Assembly (NCBI GenBank): GCA_020848455.1
Contig: JADLAB010000064.1
Span: 1 to 35,002, forward strand
DNA length: 35,002 nt
Source of the DNA: Polyangiaceae bacterium
Lineage (GTDB): Bacteria; Myxococcota_A; Polyangia; Polyangiales; Polyangiaceae
Reading direction: 5' to 3'
Notes under the pieces: model-generated
What the model saw: only the letters and a program-made list of their open reading frames with translations
Told to the model about the DNA's origin: nothing
Database searches by the model: none
Made by a program: the position numbers and the translations under genes
Shown: positions 254-33,466 of the stretch, one piece after another
Layout: each line of letters begins with the position of its first letter
Numbering within the stretch: position 1 is the first letter of the stretch

Positions 254-2959
254 TCAGCGCCGCTCCGGTGGCGGCACGAGCGAGCGACACACGCGGAACG
301 TGGTCCCGGTACCGCGAAACAGCGCGGGCTGGTGGCTGCGCGAAGCGGAGCGCGACCACTCGCGCGTGACGTTCCAGGCCCCGGAGCGCACGATCCGCGG
401 GCTCGAAGCACCGCGCTCGGTGCCCGGGTCGGGCTCGGGCTCGCCCTCGAGCGCGGCGCAGTCGTGCTCGCCGAACAGATCGCCCACCCACTCGCGCATG
501 CCGCCGGCGAGATCGCGCACGCCGTAGGGCGACTCGTCGCAAGGGAAGGTGCCGATGGGCTCCGGCTGGTGCAGGAAGGGACGGCTGTGGCGCGTGAGGC
601 AGAAGGTCGCGTCGAAGTGGTCGCCCCACGGGAAGAAGCGCCCGTCGACACCCCGCGCCGCCTTCTCCCACTCCGCCTCGCCGGGCAGGCGCACCTGGAC
701 GCCCTCGCGCGCGGCCAGCCAGCGGCAGTAGGCCCGCGCGTCGAACCAGGTGACGAGGTGCACCGGCACGCGCCACAGGTGCCCGGCCTCGGGCGGGAAC
801 AGGACGCGCGCCTCGCCCTCGATCATGAGGTCGTGCGGCTCCCAGCGCCCGTCCGGCCCGCGCTGCACCGAGGCGGCGACCGTCTCGCGCAGCTGGAAGG
901 GCGCGCGGCGCTCGACCGCGGCCGGATCGTGCGCTCCGAGATCGTCGAGGAAGGCGCAGTACTCGCGCATCGTGACCGGGTGCACGGCGATGGCGAAGTC
1001 GCCCACGGCGCAGTGCTGCCGCGGCAGGGGATCGACGGCGTCGGGATCACCACCGAGCAGCACCTCGCTCGCCGGGACGTAGCGGTAGCCCTCGCCGATC
1101 TCGGCCGGCGTGTAGAGGTTGACGCTGGCCTCGTGCCGTCCGCCACGCTCGAGCATCACCGGGTAGCGCACCGCGGTGAAGCCGGGGGCCTCGAGGGTGA
1201 CGAGGTAGCTGCCCGGCTCGAGCTCGACCTCGCCGACGGGCGTCGTGCCGAGCACGCGCTCGTCGTGCGGCACGAGGCGGCGCTCGTGCTCCTCGTAGCG
1301 CGCGACCTTCACGAGCGCCCCGCCCGGCCGCGAGGCGACCGCGAGCGTGGCGCGGGCCGAGAGCAGCTCGACGTAGCGACCGTCGTCGTGCTCGATGACC
1401 AGCGTCTCGTAGTGCACGCGCATGGCGTGCCGGCGCTCGGCCTCGGCCTGGCGGGCGCGCGACCAGTACAGATCGGCGAGCCCTTCGTGCGCGTGGCGGC
1501 ACTCGGCGTCGTAGCCGAGCGCCTTGGTGTAGAGGTCGATGGCCTCGGCCAGCCGGCGGGCACTCTCGCGCTCGCTCTGCGCGGCGCGCTCCTCGAGGTG
1601 CCAGGCCGGGAGCTTGTCCGAGACGGGGCGCCAGTCCTCGACGTGCTTCAGCAGCTCGCGCGCGCGCGCCCGCAAGAGCTCCGCGTGGCGCTCGAGCGCG
1701 AGGCACTGGTCCGCGGGGCCGCGCGCCACCTCGGAGAGCCGGCGCGCCTCGCCGCGCCGCCGTTCGCGCTCCTTGGCTCCCTCGAGGTAGGCCTCGATCT
1801 GCTGCGCGACCGCGTCGGCCGACGACAAGCGGCGCTCCGGGTCCTTCTCGAGCATCGTGAGGCACAGGTCCTCGAGCAGCAGCGGGCAGCTCGGCTCGAG
1901 CTCGCGCGGCGGGGTCGGTGCCTGCTTCACGGTGGCGAACAGGGTGGCGCGCGCGTCCCGCCCACGGAAGGGCATGCGCCCGGTCAGCATCTCGTAGAGC
2001 ACGACACCGAGGGAGAAGATGTCGGAGCGATGATCGACACGCGCCCAGTCCCCGCGCGCGAGCTCCGGGGCGAGAAAGCCCGGCGTGCCGCCGGGCGGCG
2101 AGTGCTGGGGCGGCACGGCGGTGAGCGTGTCGAGCGGCGCCTCCTCGGGCGCGAGGTCCTCGAGGTCGGGCGGCGGAGGCAGGGTGCTCGTGCTGGTGCG
2201 CACCAGGCTGTGGGGCTGCACCCGCGTCAGGCCCCAGTCCGCGAGGTACACCTCGCCGAAGTCACCGAGCAGGATGTTCTCGGGCTTGATGTCGCCGTGC
2301 AGCACGCCGCGCGAGTGCGCGTAGGCGAGCGCGCGCGAGACCTGCAAGAGCGCCCCGAGGAGGCGCACGAGAGACCAGCGCTCGTCGACCGGCAGGCCCA
2401 TCACGTCCGCGAGCGAGTGCCGCTGGACGATGCGCATCGTGTAGTAGGGCTGGCCGCTCGGCAGCATCCCGAGGTCGTAGACGGGCACGATGTTGGGGTG
2501 CTCGAGCTGCGCCGTGACGCGCGCCTCGACCAGGAACTTTCGCGCCAGGCGTGGATCGTTCGGGTCCTTGAGCGTCTTCAGGGCCACGTCGCGGCCGATC
2601 TCGCGGTCGCGGCTCCTGACCACCTTGCCGACCCCACCGGCGCCGAGCGCCTGCAAGGTGCGGTAGCGCGCCCCCGCGATGCGCCCCGGTAGCTCGCCCG
2701 CGTCGATCGACGACGGCAAGGAGTCGCGCTCGGGAATCGTGCGGCCGAGCGCGGCCCGCCCCGACGTGGGTGCCTCGTCGAGGGTTCGCTCGAGCGACGC
2801 GAGCTGCTCGGCGCTGAGCGAGGTGCCGAGCACCCCCGCGACGCTCTCGTCGCTCGCGCTGCGCAGCGCGGCCTCCCACAGCACATCGGCGCCGATCCAG
2901 CCGCGCACGGCAGCCTCGACGGCGAGGCGGCGGGCTCGGTCGCGTGGGTCCGCCATCAC
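254..2959 (-). CDS. Ser/Thr protein kinase fused to PEGA and SUMF1/FGE-like domains
   Basis: A 901-residue protein. After about 95 N-terminal residues comes a Hanks-type kinase domain (about 99-394): glycine-rich loop GAGGVG, ATP lysine K128 (VALK), catalytic loop HGDIKPEN (221-228) and metal-binding DWG (241-243). The usual HRD and DFG are HGD and DWG, but the essential Lys and both Asp are kept, so activity is plausible. A charged helical, TPR-like linker (395-530) follows. A PEGA-like segment comes next (about 540-615; [20 protein letters not shown]). A C-terminal formylglycine-generating-enzyme-like fold (about 630-897) includes [14 protein letters not shown] and [12 protein letters not shown]. 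The paired catalytic cysteines of true FGE are absent, so this domain is probably structural or ligand-binding. No transmembrane helix is evident. Start: GTG at 2959 or the adjacent ATG at 2956. There is no Shine-Dalgarno, but a TACCGT box lies 9 bases upstream. Such fusions are common in Polyangia; the target is unknown. Confidence 0.9.
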
Positions 2960-2968
2960 ACTTGGGGC

Positions 2969-2974
2969 ACGGTA
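2969..2974 (-). promoter_or_regulatory. Possible -10 element for the kinase/SUMF1 gene
   Basis: On the minus strand this reads TACCGT, fitting TAnnnT. Nine bases separate it from the GTG at 2959, and no Shine-Dalgarno-like stretch intervenes, as expected for a leaderless or nearly leaderless mRNA. No convincing -35 was identified. Confidence 0.3.
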
Positions 2975-3011
2975 GGGTGCGCCGCGTCGCGGCGCACACG
3001 CACCGGCGGCG

Positions 3012-3452
3012 TCAGTGCGACACGACCGGCGCGATCTTCAGGGCCTTGGCACCGCTCGTGGCCGTCGCGGCGAACTCGCCGAGCAGGCGGCAGTCCTGCA
3101 TCTTGACGAGCAGCTTCGTCAGCTGCATGCGCTTGACGTCGCCAGGCCGGCGCGAGTCGAGGGTCCGATTCCACTGCTTCGCGAGGTTGATGCACCGGCC
3201 TGGATCGGGCGGGTAGCCGGGGTCGGGCGGGTACGTGATGACGGGCTCGAACTCGGTGAGGCGGTCGATGATCCAGACCTCCTGCGTGCCGAGGCGCTGC
3301 ACGATGCCCTCGTTCGCCGACACGTCGAAGACCTGGAGCCTGCCGACGCGCTCCTCGTTGCCGTTGGCGAGCTGGACGGTGTCGGACGCGACCAGCGAGC
3401 CGGCTGTGACCAGACCGGCAATCCCCGCGAGCACAGCGACCAATCGCCTCAT
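3012..3452 (-). CDS. Small secreted hypothetical protein
   Basis: A 146-residue protein with a typical Sec signal peptide ([18 protein letters not shown], cleavage probably after VASD or nearby). There is no lipobox cysteine, so it is probably periplasmic or secreted. The middle contains the direct peptide duplication [12 protein letters not shown]. The C-terminal half is helical and basic ([20 protein letters not shown]) with two cysteines (in PGRC and MQDC) that could form a disulfide. I do not recognise a family. It lies 52 bases upstream of the kinase/SUMF1 gene on the same strand, so the two may be co-transcribed, but the kinase gene also has its own promoter-like box. Confidence 0.7.
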
Positions 3453-3461
3453 GATGGCTCG

Positions 3462-3490
3462 ATCGTCACTGATTCGATGGCATCCGTCAA
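3462..3490 (-). promoter_or_regulatory. Putative sigma-70 type promoter for the small secreted protein
   Basis: On the minus strand, TTGACG (complement of 3485-3490), a 17-base spacer, and GACGAT (complement of 3462-3467). The -35 matches TTGACA at five of six positions and the -10 keeps A2, A5 and T6. Only nine bases separate the -10 from the ATG at 3452, so the transcript would start at or next to the start codon. Confidence 0.45.
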
Positions 3491-3560
3491 GCAGACCCGC
3501 AGCCCCCCCCGCTCGGGCGAGGCTGACATGACGCCGGTCAACTCGCGGTCGCCCGGCTGG

Positions 3561-4778
3561 CTAGCCGTTCTCGCCCGGCCACATGGCGAGGGTTCCGCCC
3601 GTCCAGGGCAAGTCCTTGTTGTGATCGACGCCGATCATCTTGCCGCGCGAGAGGCGTGCGAGGTTGAGGGCGAGCGTCGGCGCGGTGGCCTCGGGCGGAC
3701 GCAGGAACATGAGCCGCACCTCCACCTTGATGCCGTGGCCCTCGACGTCGCGCAGGGCGGGTGCGTACTCGACCTTCTGCTGCAGCATCCAGTTCGAGCG
3801 CTCCGCGGCGGGGACCGCCTCGACGTCGGCCCGCGTGGGCGTCACGTTGACGCCCATGCCCGCGAACGAGAACAGCGGCTTGAGCACGTAGTTGCCGAGA
3901 TCGTCGGGGAGCGCGGCCACATCCGACAAGAAGCTCGCCCGCGGCACGGCGGGGTGGTGCAGGAACGGCAGGCTGTACTTCGACCAGCGGAAGTACCAGC
4001 TCGGGTGCGTGCAGAACGAGACCTCGAGGTCGTCGCGGAAGTCGAAGGCCATCTGCGGCTTCACGCGCTCGAGCTCCTCGCAGACCATGCGGTTGTAGAT
4101 GCGCCGGATCGGCACGCGCTTGCCGTCGCGCCGGTAGTAGAGCTCGCGGCCCTCGCGCTCGATCTCGGTGACGCACACGGTGCGCACGCCGATGAGCTTC
4201 TCGGTGGCCGCGAAGTCCGGCCAGGTCTTCTGGCTGCGCGGCTTGATGTCGACGAGCACCACGTTCTCGACGGCCTCGCCCGCGAGGACGGTGCGACCGA
4301 GCAGGTCGACGTAGCGCGCGCGGTCGAGGCCGCCGAAGAGGTTCGTCCACCGGCCCGCGAGCTGCGGGATGCTCTGAAAGCGCCGCTCGAGGATCTCGCA
4401 CCAGAGCACCATGAGGCCGTAGAGCGACGGGAAGCCCTGCAGCTCGATGACGCGCGCGTCGAGCTCGCCGTCGGCGTCGCGGCACACCGCGAAGTCGACC
4501 GCCACCATCTCGGGCGTGGTCTCGGCCTCCGCACCGCGGTAGCGCTCGGGGATCGCCGGCCGCATCTTGTCGAGGAAGCTCGGCACGCTGAGCTCGCCCA
4601 CGATCTCCTGGGCGGCGCGCGCCATCTTGTCGCGCAGCTGCGTCGGCAAGAAGACCGGCGTCTCGGCCACGCGGAAGGGGATCTCGCCGCCGACCGCCGC
4701 CTCCAGATCGGCGCGCATGGCCGCGAAGAAGCTCTCGCCGAAGGCGGCGTTGTAGGCCCCACGGAATACCTCGTCCAT
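3561..4778 (-). CDS. ATP-grasp-like protein of unknown substrate
   Basis: A 405-residue soluble protein with no signal peptide. The C-terminal half has features of an ATP-grasp fold: a nucleotide lysine and glycine loop in NYVLKPLFSFAGMGVNV (K300), a hinge-like strand LQQKVEY (333-339), an acidic/arginine strand KVEVRLMFL (351-359), and an Asn/Arg pair in LALNLARLSRGKMIGV (about 370-385) that would ligate magnesium. The N-terminal half includes IELQGFPSLYG and DIKPRSQKTWPDF and could be the pre-ATP-grasp substrate domain. ATP-grasp enzymes typically join a carboxylate to an amine through an acyl phosphate. The gene is divergent from a tiny secreted protein and an N-formylglutamate amidohydrolase family gene, suggesting peptide or amino-acid amide chemistry. 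The fold is inferred from motifs only; the substrate is unknown. Confidence 0.6.
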   Translation of the reverse strand: MDEVFRGAYNAAFGESFFAAMRADLEAAVGGEIPFRVAETPVFLPTQLRDKMARAAQEIVGELSVPSFLDKMRPAIPERYRGAEAETTPEMVAVDFAVCRDADGELDARVIELQGFPSLYGLMVLWCEILERRFQSIPQLAGRWTNLFGGLDRARYVDLLGRTVLAGEAVENVVLVDIKPRSQKTWPDFAATEKLIGVRTVCVTEIEREGRELYYRRDGKRVPIRRIYNRMVCEELERVKPQMAFDFRDDLEVSFCTHPSWYFRWSKYSLPFLHHPAVPRASFLSDVAALPDDLGNYVLKPLFSFAGMGVNVTPTRADVEAVPAAERSNWMLQQKVEYAPALRDVEGHGIKVEVRLMFLRPPEATAPTLALNLARLSRGKMIGVDHNKDLPWTGGTLAMWPGENG

Positions 4779-4837
4779 GTGGCCTCGCTACCACAGCCCG
4801 CCCGGAGCCGCGATCGGCAGCGTGCGCCGGGGTGTGC

Positions 4838-4843
4838 TAGGCT
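4838..4843 (+). promoter_or_regulatory. -10 like box TAGGCT, leaderless-type
   Basis: TAGGCT lies eight bases before the ATG at 4852. A weak -35 (TCGGCA, 4814-4819) is 18 bases upstream. There is no Shine-Dalgarno between box and start. The same TAGGnT arrangement precedes the genes at 8961 and 13131. Confidence 0.4.
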
Positions 4844-4851
4844 CCGCCGAG

Positions 4852-24274: not shown

Positions 24275-25216
24275 CTAGGGCGGAGCCGTGCCGGGCGGAT
24301 ACTTGAGCATGACGCGATTCCGGCCCGCGTGCTTCGCCGCGTAGAGGGCTTCGTCCGCGGCGGCGATGAGGCCGCGCGGATCTTCCTGGTGGGGCTCGAA
24401 GCACGCGACGCCGACGCTCACCGTCACCGGCAGGCGCTTGCCGTCCGACACGATCGGCGCCACCTCGACCGCGGCGCGCAGGCGCTCGGCCAGCAGGCCC
24501 GCGTTCGCGAGCGTGATGCCGCGCAGGACCACGACGAACTCCTCGCCCCCGTAGCGGGCGAAGACGTCCTCGGTCCGCAGCATGCCCTGCACCACCGAGG
24601 CAATCTCGATGAGCACCTGATCGCCCGCCGGATGCCCGTAGGTGTCGTTGACGCGCTTGAAGTGGTCGAGGTCGAACATGATGAGCGACAGCGGCGTCTC
24701 GTGGCGCTTGGCGTACGAGACCTCGGTGGCGATCGAGTCGAGGAAGTACTTCTTGTTGTAGGCGCGCGTGAGCGGATCGCGCAGCGCCGCGTTGTACATC
24801 TTCTGCTGGAAGCTCTCGTCCAGCCGGTCGTGGAAGGTGAACTTCAGGATCGTGGTCTCGCCGACGCGGATCTTGTCGCCGTCCTTGAGCGCGTGCTTCG
24901 CGATGCGCTCGCCGTTGACCATCGTGCCGTTCGAGCTCTGCAGATCCTCGACCTCCACGAAGGTGCCGGCGAGCGTCACCTTGACGTGGAGGCGCGAGAT
25001 CGAGTCGTCGTCGAGGCGGATGTCGGCCTTCTGCGAGCGACCGATGGTCGTCTGGCCCTCGCCGAGCTTGAACATCTTGCCGACGTCGACGCCGGCGAGG
25101 ACGATGAGATAGGCACGGTCGCGCTGCGAGCGGCGCGTGAGCTCGGCCCGCAGCTTGTCGAGGTCCGACACGCGCGTCGCCTCGAGATCGTCGTATTTCT
25201 CGTCGTCGTCGCTCAT
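24275..25216 (-). CDS. FHA-GGDEF diguanylate cyclase
   Basis: A 313-residue cytoplasmic protein. An N-terminal FHA domain (about 36-120) has the phosphothreonine-binding residues of TTIGRSQKADIRL, DDDSISRLH and SSNGTMVNG. A C-terminal GGDEF domain (about 143-305) has the active-site GGEEF (223-227), substrate residues in FDLDHFKRVNDTYGHPAGD, and an inhibitory I-site RTED exactly five residues before GGEEF. It should therefore make cyclic-di-GMP with product feedback. The FHA domain links it to a phosphorylated partner, plausibly a Hanks kinase or its target, though no direct pairing is shown. The start is the ATG at 25216 rather than the preceding TTG. It is expressed divergently from the large lipoprotein gene. 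Confidence 0.95.
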   Translation of the reverse strand: MSDDDEKYDDLEATRVSDLDKLRAELTRRSQRDRAYLIVLAGVDVGKMFKLGEGQTTIGRSQKADIRLDDDSISRLHVKVTLAGTFVEVEDLQSSNGTMVNGERIAKHALKDGDKIRVGETTILKFTFHDRLDESFQQKMYNAALRDPLTRAYNKKYFLDSIATEVSYAKRHETPLSLIMFDLDHFKRVNDTYGHPAGDQVLIEIASVVQGMLRTEDVFARYGGEEFVVVLRGITLANAGLLAERLRAAVEVAPIVSDGKRLPVTVSVGVACFEPHQEDPRGLIAAADEALYAAKHAGRNRVMLKYPPGTAPP

Positions 25217-25245
25217 CAAGCCGGCGTCCGGGCGGTCAATGGGTC

Positions 25246-25479: not shown

Positions 25480-28400
25480 ATGCTTCGCTTGTTGAAGCGA
25501 CTCGTCATTGCCCTCGTCCTTCTCGTGTTCGCCGGCTGCGCCGGTGGCGGCTGCTCGAGCGGCTGCGCGTGCGGCGGGCTCGAGCCGCTGCCCGGTGGCT
25601 TCGACGCCAGCAAGCGCATCGAGAACGCCGCCGCGGTGCGACTCACCCAGTCCGGCCTGCAGTTCTTGCAGGACAACGTGGGCACCCTCGCGGCCACGCT
25701 CATCGGCGGCGGCGGCGGCATCATGACCTTCGAGGTGCCGGAGACCTCGGGCAGCCAGCTCGGCATCGACTACGCGGTGTGCCAGGGGGGCGCCGACCCG
25801 AACGCGAATCCGCCCAAGTGCGTCGCGGAGATCGACATCGGCAACGCGCAGCTCGCCATCACGTCCGAGAACCCCCACGACATCCGGATCCAGGGCCCGC
25901 TGCCCATCCGGCTCCAGAGCCTGCCGATCAACATCGTCTACTTCTGCGTGCCGCTGCTCGGCTGCGTCGAGAGCAACATCGTCGGCGTGCTCAACGGCAA
26001 CGGAGCCTGCCCGAACAACGCCCAGACGTTCGCCAACATCCCGCTCAACGTCGACATCTCGATCGAGATCGACGCCGACCCGAACCACTCCCGGTTTGGC
26101 TACTCCAAGGTCAAGGTCAACACCGTCGACATCGACCAGAACACGCTCGAGGGCTCGCTCCACTTCTGCGGCGGCTTCGACGCCTCGATCCTGAACGCCC
26201 TGAAGGGGATCATCCTGCCGATGCTGATCGACCCGCTCATCGGGACGCTCACCGATCAGATCGACGCCCAGCTCTGCCAGCAGGCGAACCCGGCCGTGAC
26301 CCCGCCCTGCCCGACGGGCACCGTGGACGTGAACGGCGTGTGCCGCTACGGCAATGACGCGAACGCCGAGTGCGCCTCGATCATGCTCGGGCTCGACGGC
26401 CACGTGAACGCGGGCGCGTTGCTCTCGAGCTTCTCGCCGGGCACCCGCGGCGCGTTCGACTTCCTGCTCGCCTCGGGCGGGCACAACCTGCGCGACGACG
26501 GCTCGGGCTTCCACTGGGGCGACCTCAACCCGATCGCGAGCGGCGCCACGCTCGGCTTCTACGGCGGCTCCGAGGCGCGGCCGATGTCGAACTGCGTGCC
26601 CATCTCGAGCCTCCCGATGCCGACCGCGATTCCGATCCCGGACGAGCTCCTGGCCAACACCGTCCCGGACTGGCCGCAGGGCGACCCCAACGTCCCGCCG
26701 GCGCCGCACGTGGGCCTGGCCCTCTCGGAGCGCTTCACGAACTACCTCATGGCGCAGGTCTACAACAGCGGCACCCTGTGCCTCGGCATCACCGGCGACC
26801 TCGTGCCGCAGCTCACCTCGAGCCTCGTCGCGATCGGCATCGGTGCGCCGTCGATGAACGAGCTCGGCTGGCAGAAGCAGGCCCAGCAGCTCGCGATCGC
26901 CATCCGGCCCCAGCAGCCCCCCGAGGTGCACTTCGGCAACGGCACCGATCTCGCGACCGACCCGCTCATCCGGGTGACCGCCAAGCAGATGGTGTTCGAC
27001 TTCTACATCTGGTCGCTCGACCGCTTCGTGCGTGCCTTCTCCGCCAGCCTGGACCTCGACGTGCCGGTCAACCTGGTGGTCACCCCCGACGGCCTGCAGC
27101 CCGTCATCGACCAGATCGGCGTCTCGAACGGCGTCGTCACGACGAGCTTGCTGCGCGAGGATCCGACGAAGATCGCCGCGTCGCTCCAGGACCTCTTGGG
27201 GTCGATGGTGGGCCAGTTCATCGGCGGCGCCATCCCGCCCGTCGACCTCAACGGCTCGCTCGCGAGCCTCGGCCTGACGCTCGTGATCCCGGACACCGTG
27301 GACGGCCAGGGCTCGCCCGGCCTGCGCAAGCTTTCCAAGGGCAGCGACAGCTTCCTCGGCATCTTCGCAGCCCTCGGGGTCGTCCAGGCGAAGACCTCGG
27401 TCGACACCACGGTCGGCTTCGTGTCCTTCGACGCCGGCGACCTCGGCTGGAGCGGCGCCGAGCGCCGCCTGCCGGAGGCCGTGCTCGACCTCGGCACGGA
27501 CCTCGCCAGCGCGGGTCAGCGCGTGGAGTGGCAGTACCGCGTCGACAACCTGCCGTGGCACCCGTTCCGCAGCGACCGGCGCCTGGTGGCGCGCGACCCG
27601 TGGCTCTCCACCGAGGGCAAGCACGTCGTGAGCGTGCGGGCGCGCGTCGTCGGCGACCCACTCACCCTCGACCGCGAGCCCGCCACGTTCCAGCTGGACG
27701 TCGACTCGTCGCCGCCCTTCGTCGCCGTGCAGCAGGCCGAGGGAACCGTGCTCGTGACGGCGGACGACGCCGTGTCGGGCGACGCCACGATGGTGCGCGT
27801 ACGCCTCGGGCGCACCGGCCGCGACGGCGCGGTGCGGTGGCACCCGTGGAGCGACTGGACGGCTGCCGCCGCGCTCGAGGCCTTCGACCCGGGCGACAAC
27901 GACCGCATCGAGGTCGAGGCCGAGGACGAGACCGGCCACGTGGGCTCGACCTCGCAGGCCCTGCTCCGCGGCCGCGTCGGCGACAGCGGCGGGGGTGGCT
28001 GCGGTTGCGTGCTGGCGGGCTCGGGCGAGCGCGGCGGCTCGGCCTGGTGGCTCGCGGCGCTCGGCGTCGGCGCCGTGCTCGGACGGCGGGTCCTCGGGCG
28101 GCGCGGACGCGCGCATCGCGCAGGCGTCGCGCGCCGCTGGCGCGAGCTCACCCTCGCCCTCGTGGTCCTGACGGTTCCGGGCATGTTCGCCGGCTGCAAC
28201 TGCGCCGAGGACGAGACCACCGCCGAGACGGGCTGCCGCGCCACCGGGACCTGCGTCGCGCTCAACCCGGGCCTCATCGGCGCCTACACGTCGGCGACCG
28301 TCGACGCCGCCGGCACGGTGTGGATCGCGGGTTACCTCGAGGCCGACTGGGCGGGAGGCTTCACCTGGGGCGATCTCGTCGTGGGCAGCTACACGGGCGG

Positions 28401-29610
28401 GGACGTCGTGTGGACGCTGGTCGACGGCGTGCCGACCGAGCCCCCGGTCAACGCGAACCTCTACGACCCGCAAGGGTTTCGAGGCGGGCAGACCGAGCCC
28501 GGCGACGACGTCGGCCTGTGGACGTCGATCGCGCTCGACGCGAACGGCCAGCCGGCCCTCGCCTACTACGACGCGACGCATCATGCCCTCCGCTACGCGA
28601 GCTTCGCGGGCGGGGGCTGGGCGAGCACGGAGGTCGTCGGCGGTGACAAGGCCGAAAACGGCCGCTACGCCAAGCTCTCGTTCGTCAGCGGGCTGCCGGT
28701 CATCGCCTACCAGTTCGTCGAGGCGGGAGACGCGGGCGCGGTCCGCAGCGGCGTGCGCCTGGCGCTCGGCAGCGCGGTCGGCGCGAGCCAGGCGACGTGG
28801 ACCTTCGAGGAGGTCGCGGCCGACGAGGCCACGCCGTGCCGCGCGCGCTACTGCGCGACGGGGACGACGTGCGTGAAGTCGACGGGCACGTGCCTGGACA
28901 AGAGCAAGGATTGCCCGGCGAGCTGCGCCTCCGGCGAGTCGTGCGTCCTCGTCAACGCCGTGCCGCAATGCGAGGCGGTGTACGGCAACACGCAGACCGA
29001 CAGCTACCCCGATGCCACGGGGCTCTACGTATCGCTCGCGGCGAACCCCGTGGGTGGCCTCGGCGTCGCCTTCTACGACCGCATCCACGGCAACGTGGTC
29101 GTCGCCTCCAAGGCGGGCGCGGCGTGGACGACGGTCATCGCCGACGGCGAGAGCGCGGGCACCGACACCGGCGACAAGGGCATCGGGCTGTCGCTCGCCA
29201 TCGACCTCGATGGCAACTATCACCTGAGCTACGTCGATGGCCTCGAGGAGGCCGTCAACTACGTGAAGGTGACCGCCGGCACCACGCCGGGCACGCCCGA
29301 GGTGGTCGATACGGGCGCCGGCAACAGCGACGGCCAGCACCTGGTCGGCGACGACTCGAACATCCTCGTCACGCAGGGCGGCGAGATCCGCGTGAGCTAC
29401 CAGGACGCCTCGGAGGGCACACTGCGCCTCGCCGTCGGTACCCCGTCGCAGGGCGCCCATGCCTGGACGGTCACGACGCTGCCGCAGGACGGCCACTTCG
29501 CGGGCGCGTTCTCGCGCCAGGTCGAGCTGCCGGGCGGGTCCAGGATCGTCAACTGGTGGCGCGTGGCGACGCCGTCCGCGATCGGCAACGTCAGCGTCGT
29601 CGCGCCGTAG
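25480..29610 (+). CDS. Giant lipoprotein: two surface proteins in one frame, internal MYXO-CTERM-like segment
   Basis: A 1376-residue protein. The N-terminal lipoprotein signal (LVIALVLLVFAGC, lipid cysteine C20) is followed by a Cys/Gly stretch. Domain A (about 35-835) is a large domain with no recognised family and an Ig-like or fibronectin-like region near 680-830. GGGGCGC (cysteines at bases 28000 and 28006) precedes a Trp-containing helix (SAWWLAALGVGAVLG) and an Arg cluster (RRVLGRRGRAHR). This is the tripartite MYXO-CTERM sorting pattern, normally found at the extreme C-terminus. A second hydrophobic helix then ends in a second lipobox, MFAGC (C906). Domain B (about 915-1376) has propeller-like repeats of the type SIALDANGQPALAYYD and a Cys-rich insert (CRARYCATGTTC). 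No stop codon separates the halves. The start is set by GGAGG seven bases before the ATG. Function is unknown; a surface or outer-membrane location is inferred. Confidence 0.85.
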   Translation: MLRLLKRLVIALVLLVFAGCAGGGCSSGCACGGLEPLPGGFDASKRIENAAAVRLTQSGLQFLQDNVGTLAATLIGGGGGIMTFEVPETSGSQLGIDYAVCQGGADPNANPPKCVAEIDIGNAQLAITSENPHDIRIQGPLPIRLQSLPINIVYFCVPLLGCVESNIVGVLNGNGACPNNAQTFANIPLNVDISIEIDADPNHSRFGYSKVKVNTVDIDQNTLEGSLHFCGGFDASILNALKGIILPMLIDPLIGTLTDQIDAQLCQQANPAVTPPCPTGTVDVNGVCRYGNDANAECASIMLGLDGHVNAGALLSSFSPGTRGAFDFLLASGGHNLRDDGSGFHWGDLNPIASGATLGFYGGSEARPMSNCVPISSLPMPTAIPIPDELLANTVPDWPQGDPNVPPAPHVGLALSERFTNYLMAQVYNSGTLCLGITGDLVPQLTSSLVAIGIGAPSMNELGWQKQAQQLAIAIRPQQPPEVHFGNGTDLATDPLIRVTAKQMVFDFYIWSLDRFVRAFSASLDLDVPVNLVVTPDGLQPVIDQIGVSNGVVTTSLLREDPTKIAASLQDLLGSMVGQFIGGAIPPVDLNGSLASLGLTLVIPDTVDGQGSPGLRKLSKGSDSFLGIFAALGVVQAKTSVDTTVGFVSFDAGDLGWSGAERRLPEAVLDLGTDLASAGQRVEWQYRVDNLPWHPFRSDRRLVARDPWLSTEGKHVVSVRARVVGDPLTLDREPATFQLDVDSSPPFVAVQQAEGTVLVTADDAVSGDATMVRVRLGRTGRDGAVRWHPWSDWTAAAALEAFDPGDNDRIEVEAEDETGHVGSTSQALLRGRVGDSGGGGCGCVLAGSGERGGSAWWLAALGVGAVLGRRVLGRRGRAHRAGVARRWRELTLALVVLTVPGMFAGCNCAEDETTAETGCRATGTCVALNPGLIGAYTSATVDAAGTVWIAGYLEADWAGGFTWGDLVVGSYTGGDVVWTLVDGVPTEPPVNANLYDPQGFRGGQTEPGDDVGLWTSIALDANGQPALAYYDATHHALRYASFAGGGWASTEVVGGDKAENGRYAKLSFVSGLPVIAYQFVEAGDAGAVRSGVRLALGSAVGASQATWTFEEVAADEATPCRARYCATGTTCVKSTGTCLDKSKDCPASCASGESCVLVNAVPQCEAVYGNTQTDSYPDATGLYVSLAANPVGGLGVAFYDRIHGNVVVASKAGAAWTTVIADGESAGTDTGDKGIGLSLAIDLDGNYHLSYVDGLEEAVNYVKVTAGTTPGTPEVVDTGAGNSDGQHLVGDDSNILVTQGGEIRVSYQDASEGTLRLAVGTPSQGAHAWTVTTLPQDGHFAGAFSRQVELPGGSRIVNWWRVATPSAIGNVSVVAP

Positions 29611-31528: not shown

Positions 31529-33466
31529 ATGGCACGCCAAGCCTCTCAGCCTCCCGGCCGCGCCCCGAGCCGGCCCGGCACGCGCCCCGGCCACGAGGCG
31601 GGGCCGCGCCGGCCGCACGCTCACGGCGGCCCTGCCGGGCGGGGCTCGCGACCCGACGCGCCCGAGGGGCGCGCGACGGGCGGCGAGGCGAGCCCGCGCA
31701 ACGCCCGCACGCCCGCGCGCGGCCCTCGGCAGGCGAGCGGCCCGGCGCGTCCCGGCCGCGCCAGTGCACTCGTCGGCGCGGGCGTCGGCGTGCTGCTCGG
31801 GGCCGGCGCCATCGTGGTGGCCAGCCACACGAGCGCCTGCCGCGCCGACCCACCCCCGGGCGCCTCCATCGAGGGAGATCTGGCGGCAGCCGGCGGCGGC
31901 GCCGAGCTCGGCCTGCCCCCACCGCCCGCACCGGCCGGCGACCTCGACAAGCAGCTCGAGCAGGCGGGCGTCAAGGACGACACCCCGCCCGTGGCGAGCG
32001 CCGCGGGCGAGCAGCCCTACGGCGGCCCGTGGCTCGGAGCCCTCGCCGACAAGACCCCCGTCTACGAGACGGCGCGCTTCTCCTCGCAGTGGCAGGGCTA
32101 CCTGCGCAAGGGCGCGAAGGTGGCGGTGATCGACAAGCCGATTCGCACGGCCGCCTGCCGGCAGGGGTTCTACCCGCTGGTCGGCGGCGGCTACGTGTGC
32201 GGCAAGTACGCCACGCTCGACCTCGGCGACGCGCGCGTGCGGCTCGGCATTCGCGCACCCAATCTCGACGCGGCCCTGCCCTACCGCTACGCGTACAACA
32301 ACGCGCACGGCACGCCGCTCTACCAGGTCGTCCCGACCCCCGAGCAGATGTACGCCTACGAGCCGTACCTCAAGAAGCCTGGCGCGAAGGACGACAAGCC
32401 GCCGAAGGAGCCGAGCTCGGCCGAGGTCGTCGCGAGCGCGGCGCCCGACGCGGGCGCCGACCCGCTGCCGGTCGCGAGCGCGCCCGAGCCGGCGACGTCC
32501 CGGGAGGTCGTCCCGGCGGCCGTCGACGCCACCGACGCCGGCCTCGCGGAGGAAGAGCCAGAGAAGCCCTGGTGGCAGAAGCCGAAGGGCGAGCAGGTCA
32601 ACGTCACGCTGAAGGACCTCGACGAGCACGACGGCGTCATCGCCAAGCGCATGGTCAAGGGCTTCTTCATCGCGATCGACCGCACCTTCGGGCTCAACAG
32701 CCGCATCTGGTACAAGAGCACGAGCGGGCTGGTCGCGCCGGCCGACCGCATGATCATCCCGAAGACGCCCGAGACGCGCGGCATCGTGCTCGGCGGCGGC
32801 GTGAAGGCCGCGGGCTTCGTCGTGGCGCAGCGCGCGCACAAGTATGCCGTGGACGCGAAGCGACCCAAGCGGGGCGACAAGCTGCCGCGGCACTTCGCCG
32901 TGGGACTCACGGGACGCACGGAGCTCTACGACAAGACGCGCTACCGCGAGACCGTCGACGGCTACTGGCTCAAGGACGACGAGATCACCTACACCGAGCC
33001 CGGCGAGCGGCCCGGCGGCGTCGGCCCCGCGGAGAAGTGGATCGACGTGAACCTCTCGAAGAAGACGCTGGTCGCCTTCGAGGGCGACACACCCGCCTAC
33101 GCGGCGCTCGTGAGCCCCGGCAAGCGCTCCTCGGACAAGCGCAAGGATCACCGCACGAAGACGGGCTCCTTCCGCATCCGCGAGAAGCACGTCGCGATCA
33201 CGATGGACGGCGACGGCATCGCCGGGGACGCGCCCTACAGCATCGAGGACGTGCCCTACGTCGAGTACTACGACGGCTCGTACGCCCTGCACGCCGCCTT
33301 CTGGCACGACAACTTCGGGCGCGAGCAGAGCCATGGCTGCGTGAACCTCGCGCCGGAGGACGCCAAGCACATCTTCATGTGGACCGATCCCGCGCTGCCG
33401 CCGGGTTGGCACGGGGTGTGGGCCACGGGCGCCCGGCCGGGCTCGATGGTCGTGATCCACGAGTAG
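31529..33466 (+). CDS. L,D-transpeptidase (YkuD), membrane-anchored
   Basis: A 645-residue envelope enzyme. The N-terminus is about 80 residues of disordered Arg/Pro/Gly-rich sequence. A single helix (ASALVGAGVGVLLGAGAIVVA) anchors it, and a Pro-rich spacer follows. An SH3-like segment (about 170-235; KTPVYETARFSSQWQGYLRKGAKVAVI) may bind wall polymer. The C-terminal YkuD domain (about 505-640) has the hallmark LHAAFWH upstream of SHGCVNL, with nucleophile C604. L,D-transpeptidases form 3-3 crosslinks in peptidoglycan or attach lipoproteins to it. The protein is far longer than the roughly 300 residues typical of the family; the middle (about 345-500) has no recognised domain. The ATG at 31529 is chosen because the much longer upstream frame crosses the neighbouring antisense gene. 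Confidence 0.92.
   Translation: MARQASQPPGRAPSRPGTRPGHEAGPRRPHAHGGPAGRGSRPDAPEGRATGGEASPRNARTPARGPRQASGPARPGRASALVGAGVGVLLGAGAIVVASHTSACRADPPPGASIEGDLAAAGGGAELGLPPPPAPAGDLDKQLEQAGVKDDTPPVASAAGEQPYGGPWLGALADKTPVYETARFSSQWQGYLRKGAKVAVIDKPIRTAACRQGFYPLVGGGYVCGKYATLDLGDARVRLGIRAPNLDAALPYRYAYNNAHGTPLYQVVPTPEQMYAYEPYLKKPGAKDDKPPKEPSSAEVVASAAPDAGADPLPVASAPEPATSREVVPAAVDATDAGLAEEEPEKPWWQKPKGEQVNVTLKDLDEHDGVIAKRMVKGFFIAIDRTFGLNSRIWYKSTSGLVAPADRMIIPKTPETRGIVLGGGVKAAGFVVAQRAHKYAVDAKRPKRGDKLPRHFAVGLTGRTELYDKTRYRETVDGYWLKDDEITYTEPGERPGGVGPAEKWIDVNLSKKTLVAFEGDTPAYAALVSPGKRSSDKRKDHRTKTGSFRIREKHVAITMDGDGIAGDAPYSIEDVPYVEYYDGSYALHAAFWHDNFGREQSHGCVNLAPEDAKHIFMWTDPALPPGWHGVWATGARPGSMVVIHE

Follow-up and report, generated by a model that had tools for sequence, protein, structure and literature searches.

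One reading frame with two exported halves

The window, i.e., the whole stretch of 35,002 nucleotides of Polyangiaceae DNA analysed here, contains a single open reading frame of 1376 residues whose parts are compiled in Table 1. Reading of this frame confirmed what an earlier note on the same DNA had described, namely two exported domains that flank a cysteine motif, a helix, an arginine-rich loop and another helix terminating in MFAGC. The cysteine of the N-terminal lipobox (Cys20, codon 25537-25539) is preceded by VFAG, and a script recovered an N-terminal lipobox from 80 of the 99 fused homologues. Behind this first lipobox lies a stretch rich in Cys and Gly, CAGGGCSSGCACGG (25537-25590), that is conserved in the homologues. 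The junction between the halves reads GGGGCGCVLAGSGERGGSAWWLAALGVGAVLG-RRVLGRRGRAHRAGVARRWRE-LTLALVVLTVPGMFAG-CNCAEDE, with 8 basic and no acidic residues over a 19-residue loop and with the codon of the internal lipobox cysteine, Cys906, at 28195-28197.

Table 1. Features of the polyprotein gene and their positions in the window.
Feature	Residues	Position	Strand	Basis or remark
Whole polyprotein ORF	1376 aa	25480..29610	+	ATG at 25480 to stop at 29610, stop included
N-terminal lipoprotein signal, MLRLLKRLVIALVLLVFAG-C20		25480..25539	+	Read from sequence
N-half, two-domain BPI/CETP-like (TULIP) region	~47-636	25618..27387	+	AlphaFold2, Foldseek, VIA
Two fibronectin-III-like domains	~638-832	27391..27975	+	AlphaFold2 model; VIA Z 8-9
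CGC (MYXO-CTERM signature), predicted to be lipidated and cut by myxosortase	841-843	28000..28008	+	
First transmembrane helix (out to in)	~854-868	28039..28083	+	Hydropathy; helix in model
Arg-rich loop, predicted cytoplasmic	~869-889	28084..28146	+	Charge; length and sequence variable
Internal lipoprotein signal: helix 2 and lipobox MFAG-Cys906	~890-905 (helix 2)	28147..28197	+	Cys906 kept in 99/99
Membrane hairpin of 62 residues, predicted excised	844-905	28009..28194	+	Two predicted cut sites
C-half beta-propeller	~931-1376	28270..29607	+	AlphaFold2, Foldseek

As GC3 stays at 0.91-1.00 along the entire gene, the frame is unbroken and no frameshift is apparent, and an identical open frame recurs in the nearest genome (G001, 97% identical), in keeping with the earlier remark that the halves are free of disruption. 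Between these two genomes, the MYXO-CTERM/helix 1 segment differs by 4 synonymous and no nonsynonymous codon changes and the helix 2 segment behaves likewise; changes are concentrated in the 21 codons of the linker, with 7 synonymous and 4 nonsynonymous ones. The neighbours, judged by eye, are an FHA-GGDEF-like protein on the minus strand (24275-25219) and an L,D-transpeptidase-like protein on the plus strand (~31800-33466), neither of which gives a hint of an operon with the polyprotein gene.

The AlphaFold2 model of the N-half (pLDDT 91.8) shows the two-domain pseudodimeric TULIP fold, and its best fold matches are human BPI, CETP, and LBP; comparison with 1bp1 gives a Foldseek E of 5e-15 and a VIA Z of 16.4 over 434 residues at 12% identity. 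A profile of the N-half (A1) found no BPI chain among PDB sequences, where the sequence profiles of both halves gave no useful match. Common descent with BPI, CETP, and LBP is likely, though not proven, because support at the level of sequence consists solely of a match to PF02886 that lies under the cut-off (E=0.068). The model leads to the prediction that the N-half is a lipid-binding protein of BPI/CETP type, human BPI being the nearest fold among solved structures; an earlier prediction of a BPI-like pseudodimer in bacteria concerns DUF4403 (PMC6791001). For the C-half, the propeller-like repeats seen by the earlier note correspond to a confident beta-propeller model (pLDDT ~97), in which helix 2 is of low confidence. 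The C-half model is close to PLL-type lectins (8q7u PLL lectin, Foldseek E=1.2e-9) and to sialidase-like folds, a common fold that alone assigns no function.

Conservation, motif identity and natural separation of the halves

Matches to the window protein were found in 71 of 97 relatives and in 72 of the 237 genomes sampled across the phylum. Fetching the loci and reading their ORFs revealed both halves in one frame in 99 ORFs from several classes of Myxococcota. Isolates with the family include Sorangium cellulosum, Polyangium fumosum, and Minicystis rosea, and the fused frame is present in the complete chromosomes of S. cellulosum So ce26 and So0157-2. In one genome (G040; L025/L082) the N-half is split between two frames near residues 152-161, by a frameshift that is either real or due to sequencing.

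The cysteine before helix 1 and the one closing helix 2 are both kept in all 99 fused homologues, 93 of whose junctions were placed by a script that requires both cysteines and 6 of which were positioned or adjusted by eye; the two junction cysteines are present in every fused ORF that was read (n=99). The residue preceding the second lipobox cysteine is G in 78, A in 17, and S in 3 cases (98/99 small), and position -3 is frequently other than L, V, or I. In an alignment of one family (A4, 48% mean column identity), the second cysteine of the MYXO motif, the Gly-Cys of the lipobox and the next cysteine are invariant. The linker varies freely from ~0 to 50 residues among the 99 fused ORFs, and the net charge of the loop between the helices, +5 at the median, fits the positive-inside rule.

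TIGR03901 recognises 59 of the 99 internal segments when these are scanned alone (E<=6e-4, equivalent to about 20 bits, the curated cut-off of that model; best 1.3e-9), and 40 homologous segments lie under this threshold. The search for internal MYXO-CTERM matches proposed in the earlier note succeeded for these homologous segments but not for the window copy, for which neither TIGR03901 nor any other NCBIfam model gave a match; the full window protein yielded nothing above cut-off against NCBIfam and Pfam. Residues 841-871 of the window protein nevertheless show the MYXO-CTERM signature of invariant cysteine, helix and arginine cluster. From the Cys/Trp-helix/Arg pattern noted earlier, the cysteine (99/99), the helix and the arginine cluster stand, but Trp occurs in only 41 of 99 and, not being conserved, was rejected as a motif residue. 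The position of the segment is internal in the 99 fused ORFs and terminal in split genes. All 20 of the other MYXO-CTERM tails read in the window genome are terminal, ending at most 16 residues from the match, so that an internal MYXO-CTERM is exceptional there; not being C-terminal, the window segment is termed an internal variant rather than an ordinary member.

Stand-alone paralogues of the N-half also finish in MYXO-CTERM, that of L073 scoring 31.9 bits. Lone N-half genes or paralogues with such an end were seen in L073, L076, L080, L054, and L079, where no C-half gene was found adjoining; the lipoprotein gene behind the paralogue in L054 was considered as a C-half and proved unrelated to it.

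A separate comparison of the two halves, as suggested in the earlier note, revealed four lineages in which they are separate genes, one closing with MYXO-CTERM and the other opening with a lipoprotein signal, three as adjacent pairs and one as a pair on different contigs. In G027 the N gene stops within TGATG and the ATG of the C gene overlaps by one base, in G009 the GTG start of the C gene overlaps the stop (GTGA), and in G281, which belongs to another class, the C gene begins at the stop of the N gene or about 20 nt downstream. In all three, the N protein ends with helix 1 and the arginine cluster and the C protein opens with a lipoprotein signal; in G082, with its halves on different contigs, the C-half also has its own lipoprotein start. 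The earlier note had named as refuting its reading a homologue set that is always intact and whose internal segment never scores as MYXO-CTERM; instead, the protein is divided in these four lineages and the segment does score in 59 of 99 homologues. In a quick FastTree of both halves, whose root was not inferred and which took in the three adjacent splits only, these stand apart from each other within fused clades and three changes are needed. The simplest reading is that the fused form is old and the split forms are derived. Tight adjacency, retained in three of the four splits, hints that selection maintains a balanced ratio.

Proposed processing and rival explanations

The genome of the window encodes the myxosortase MrtC (279 bits; cut-off 195), as well as two LspA-like and three Lgt-like genes. 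A strong match to the myxosortase core is present in all of the 72 family-bearing genomes except G270, G104, and G156, which may be incomplete; as myxosortase is near-universal in the phylum, this co-occurrence is weak evidence. The C-half displays the features of a lipoprotein, i.e., a basic n-region, a hydrophobic stretch and a lipobox with a small residue before the cysteine, and in the split lineages this signal is the true N-terminus.

In our view, the gene encodes, with a probability of about 0.8, a natural polyprotein of two exported proteins whose back-to-back sorting signals would be cut by myxosortase and signal peptidase II. The chain would begin as a lipoprotein, its N-terminal signal exporting the N-half with its BPI/CETP-like and Fn3-like domains. 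Helix 1 would then halt transfer, the Arg-rich loop would remain in the cytoplasm, and helix 2 would restart export for the propeller of the C-half. Myxosortase, here MrtC, would cut directly after Cys843 of the MYXO-CTERM motif, and Lgt and LspA would lipidate Cys906 and cut before it, such that residues 844-905 are discarded and two separately anchored proteins arise in a 1:1 ratio from one translation. Lipidation of the MYXO-CTERM cysteine in M. xanthus has been proposed, not shown (PMC11980579). The starting points are the signals and their conservation, the split forms, the enzymes encoded in the genome and the other families with the same junction, all of them read in sequences; cleavage, lipidation, surface location and the rationale of a 1:1 ratio are what we infer from them. 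Several observations count against this reading: TIGR03901 misses the window copy and 40 of the 99 homologous segments, position -3 of the internal lipobox is frequently atypical, helix 2 is modelled with low confidence, three family-bearing genomes gave no strong myxosortase match, and the junction profile used for the other families picks out the motifs that it displays.

The main rival is that the protein stays intact, the helix hairpin tethering two exported domains while the cysteines are lipidated or structural and at least one site is uncut. The same topology would be expected without cleavage, and fused loci greatly outnumber separate ones (70 against 1 in named genomes, where contig ends interrupt a further 7). 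However, four lineages have two separate proteins in place of the fused one, unlinked in one case, and these forms speak against an uncut tether. Conservation concerns both processing motifs and not hydrophobicity alone, an uncut tether needs no C-terminal sorting signature, and experiments in M. xanthus demonstrate that MrtX cleaves TraA in a cysteine-dependent manner (PMC11980579). We therefore regard an intact tether as unlikely. Less probable still, indeed very improbable, is that the C-half lipoprotein arises by internal initiation or reinitiation of translation instead of proteolysis. Start and stop do overlap in split forms, and 48 of 61 junctions hold an ATG, GTG, or TTG 14-45 codons before the lipobox. 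Yet the other 13 of these 61 junctions (nearer relatives) have no such codon in that interval, the remaining starts are scattered and nearly all devoid of a Shine-Dalgarno-like sequence, and the window holds a single GTG, located within helix 1. For these reasons internal starts cannot be the general mechanism for the C-half.

The earlier note had also offered a sequencing error that removed a stop and a recent fusion of two neighbouring genes. The window genome is, in fact, in 742 contigs, but the same open frame recurs in the 99 ORFs across the phylum. Since dozens of independent genomes share it, complete isolate chromosomes included, an error is excluded. The fused form is spread over several classes and the tree places the split forms among fused ones, which excludes a recent fusion, and GC3 is continuous; together, we give these two explanations practically no weight. 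Among the three readings offered, the polyprotein is the sole survivor, supported by the split forms and by both cysteines being kept throughout.

Similar junctions and known systems

A profile of the junction alone was searched in 18 genomes and gave ~20 full-length, stop-free matches in ORFs outside the window family. Twenty such ORFs were read (19 full-length and one shorter), and 19 have a cysteine closing helix 2. As the profile selects the very motifs that it displays, they constitute a list of candidates. GC3 is continuous over every junction, and each downstream half is a long coding stretch, with conservation in several groups. An all-against-all comparison sorts the ORFs into about ten unrelated groups, in several of which both halves are conserved between genomes, and their domains comprise NIDO, M23 peptidase with FG-GAP, VanY with Amidase_2, cadherin-like repeats, and GDSL lipase. 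A second large family (L269, L273, L275, L279, L281, and L285; 1840-3162 aa) passes from MYXO-CTERM to a lipobox (GCDVEPYC-like), is conserved on both sides of the junction and, where scanned (L269 and L273), contains metal-binding MopE repeats. In L286 (G055:C3:996500-1001800, ORF 671-4849 on the plus strand), a VanY-like N-half and an Amidase_2 C-half surround the junction. Its C-half ends in a weak JDVT-CTERM-like tail, and both products may carry sorting tails. The shorter match, L287 (G103:C1:44500-48000, ORF 917-2920 on the minus strand), joins a MYXO-CTERM protein of the MXAN_2561 family to an OM barrel of the MXAN_2562 family, families that are named for separate, consecutively numbered M. 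xanthus loci; its second part starts in a signal-peptidase-I-like manner (AVSANAYAE) and has no lipobox. It seems reasonably likely that Myxococcota possess a general class of polyproteins in which MYXO-CTERM and a downstream signal peptide stand back to back in many unrelated pairings, so that two surface proteins would be produced at a constant 1:1 ratio and released from each other by myxosortase and a signal peptidase.

If this is true, lipoprotein biogenesis would gain an added mode of processing, and the family would supply natural two-cut substrates with known sites for the unsolved question of MYXO-CTERM lipidation, while annotation and proteomics would at present count as a single protein what are two at the surface. 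With the N-half, myxobacteria would possess a protein of BPI/CETP type, which is of interest in predators that exchange lipids of the outer membrane.

To our knowledge, bacterial polyproteins are rare, and a search of the literature for examples containing an internal lipoprotein signal returned no relevant one. FbcH of Bradyrhizobium, also a bacterial polyprotein, is cleaved within the chain at a signal sequence, by signal peptidase I, and differs from the window family in this enzyme and in a first part without terminal sorting tag. Abdul Halim, as cited in PMC11980579, reportedly described in 2017 a substrate of the Haloferax volcanii archaeosortase ArtA with an internal tripartite signal; as in the window family, a sorting signal of C-terminal type would act away from the C-terminus, but enzyme and signal are others and the title implies no second exported lipoprotein. 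In M. xanthus, the MYXO-CTERM gene traA directly precedes its partner gene traB with overlapping ORFs, as in the split forms (PMC11980579). From the fused family this pair differs by its separate ORFs. The partner, TraB, is presumably of the OM barrel/OmpA type rather than a lipoprotein. The closest likeness is MXAN_5598 of M. xanthus, in which a MYXO-CTERM also lies mid-ORF and for which processing and surface anchoring of the N-terminal part were proposed (Guo, Haft, Wall 2025, PMC11980579). Its second part, however, is an OM barrel/OmpA in a rare, possibly fused case (PMC11980579), whereas in the window family a lipobox opens the second part and natural split forms occur. As an internal MYXO-CTERM was thus already noted, the window family represents a new, widespread variant: what had been recorded as a rare oddity is here found across a large part of the phylum, paired with an internal lipoprotein signal, in a layout that many families share.
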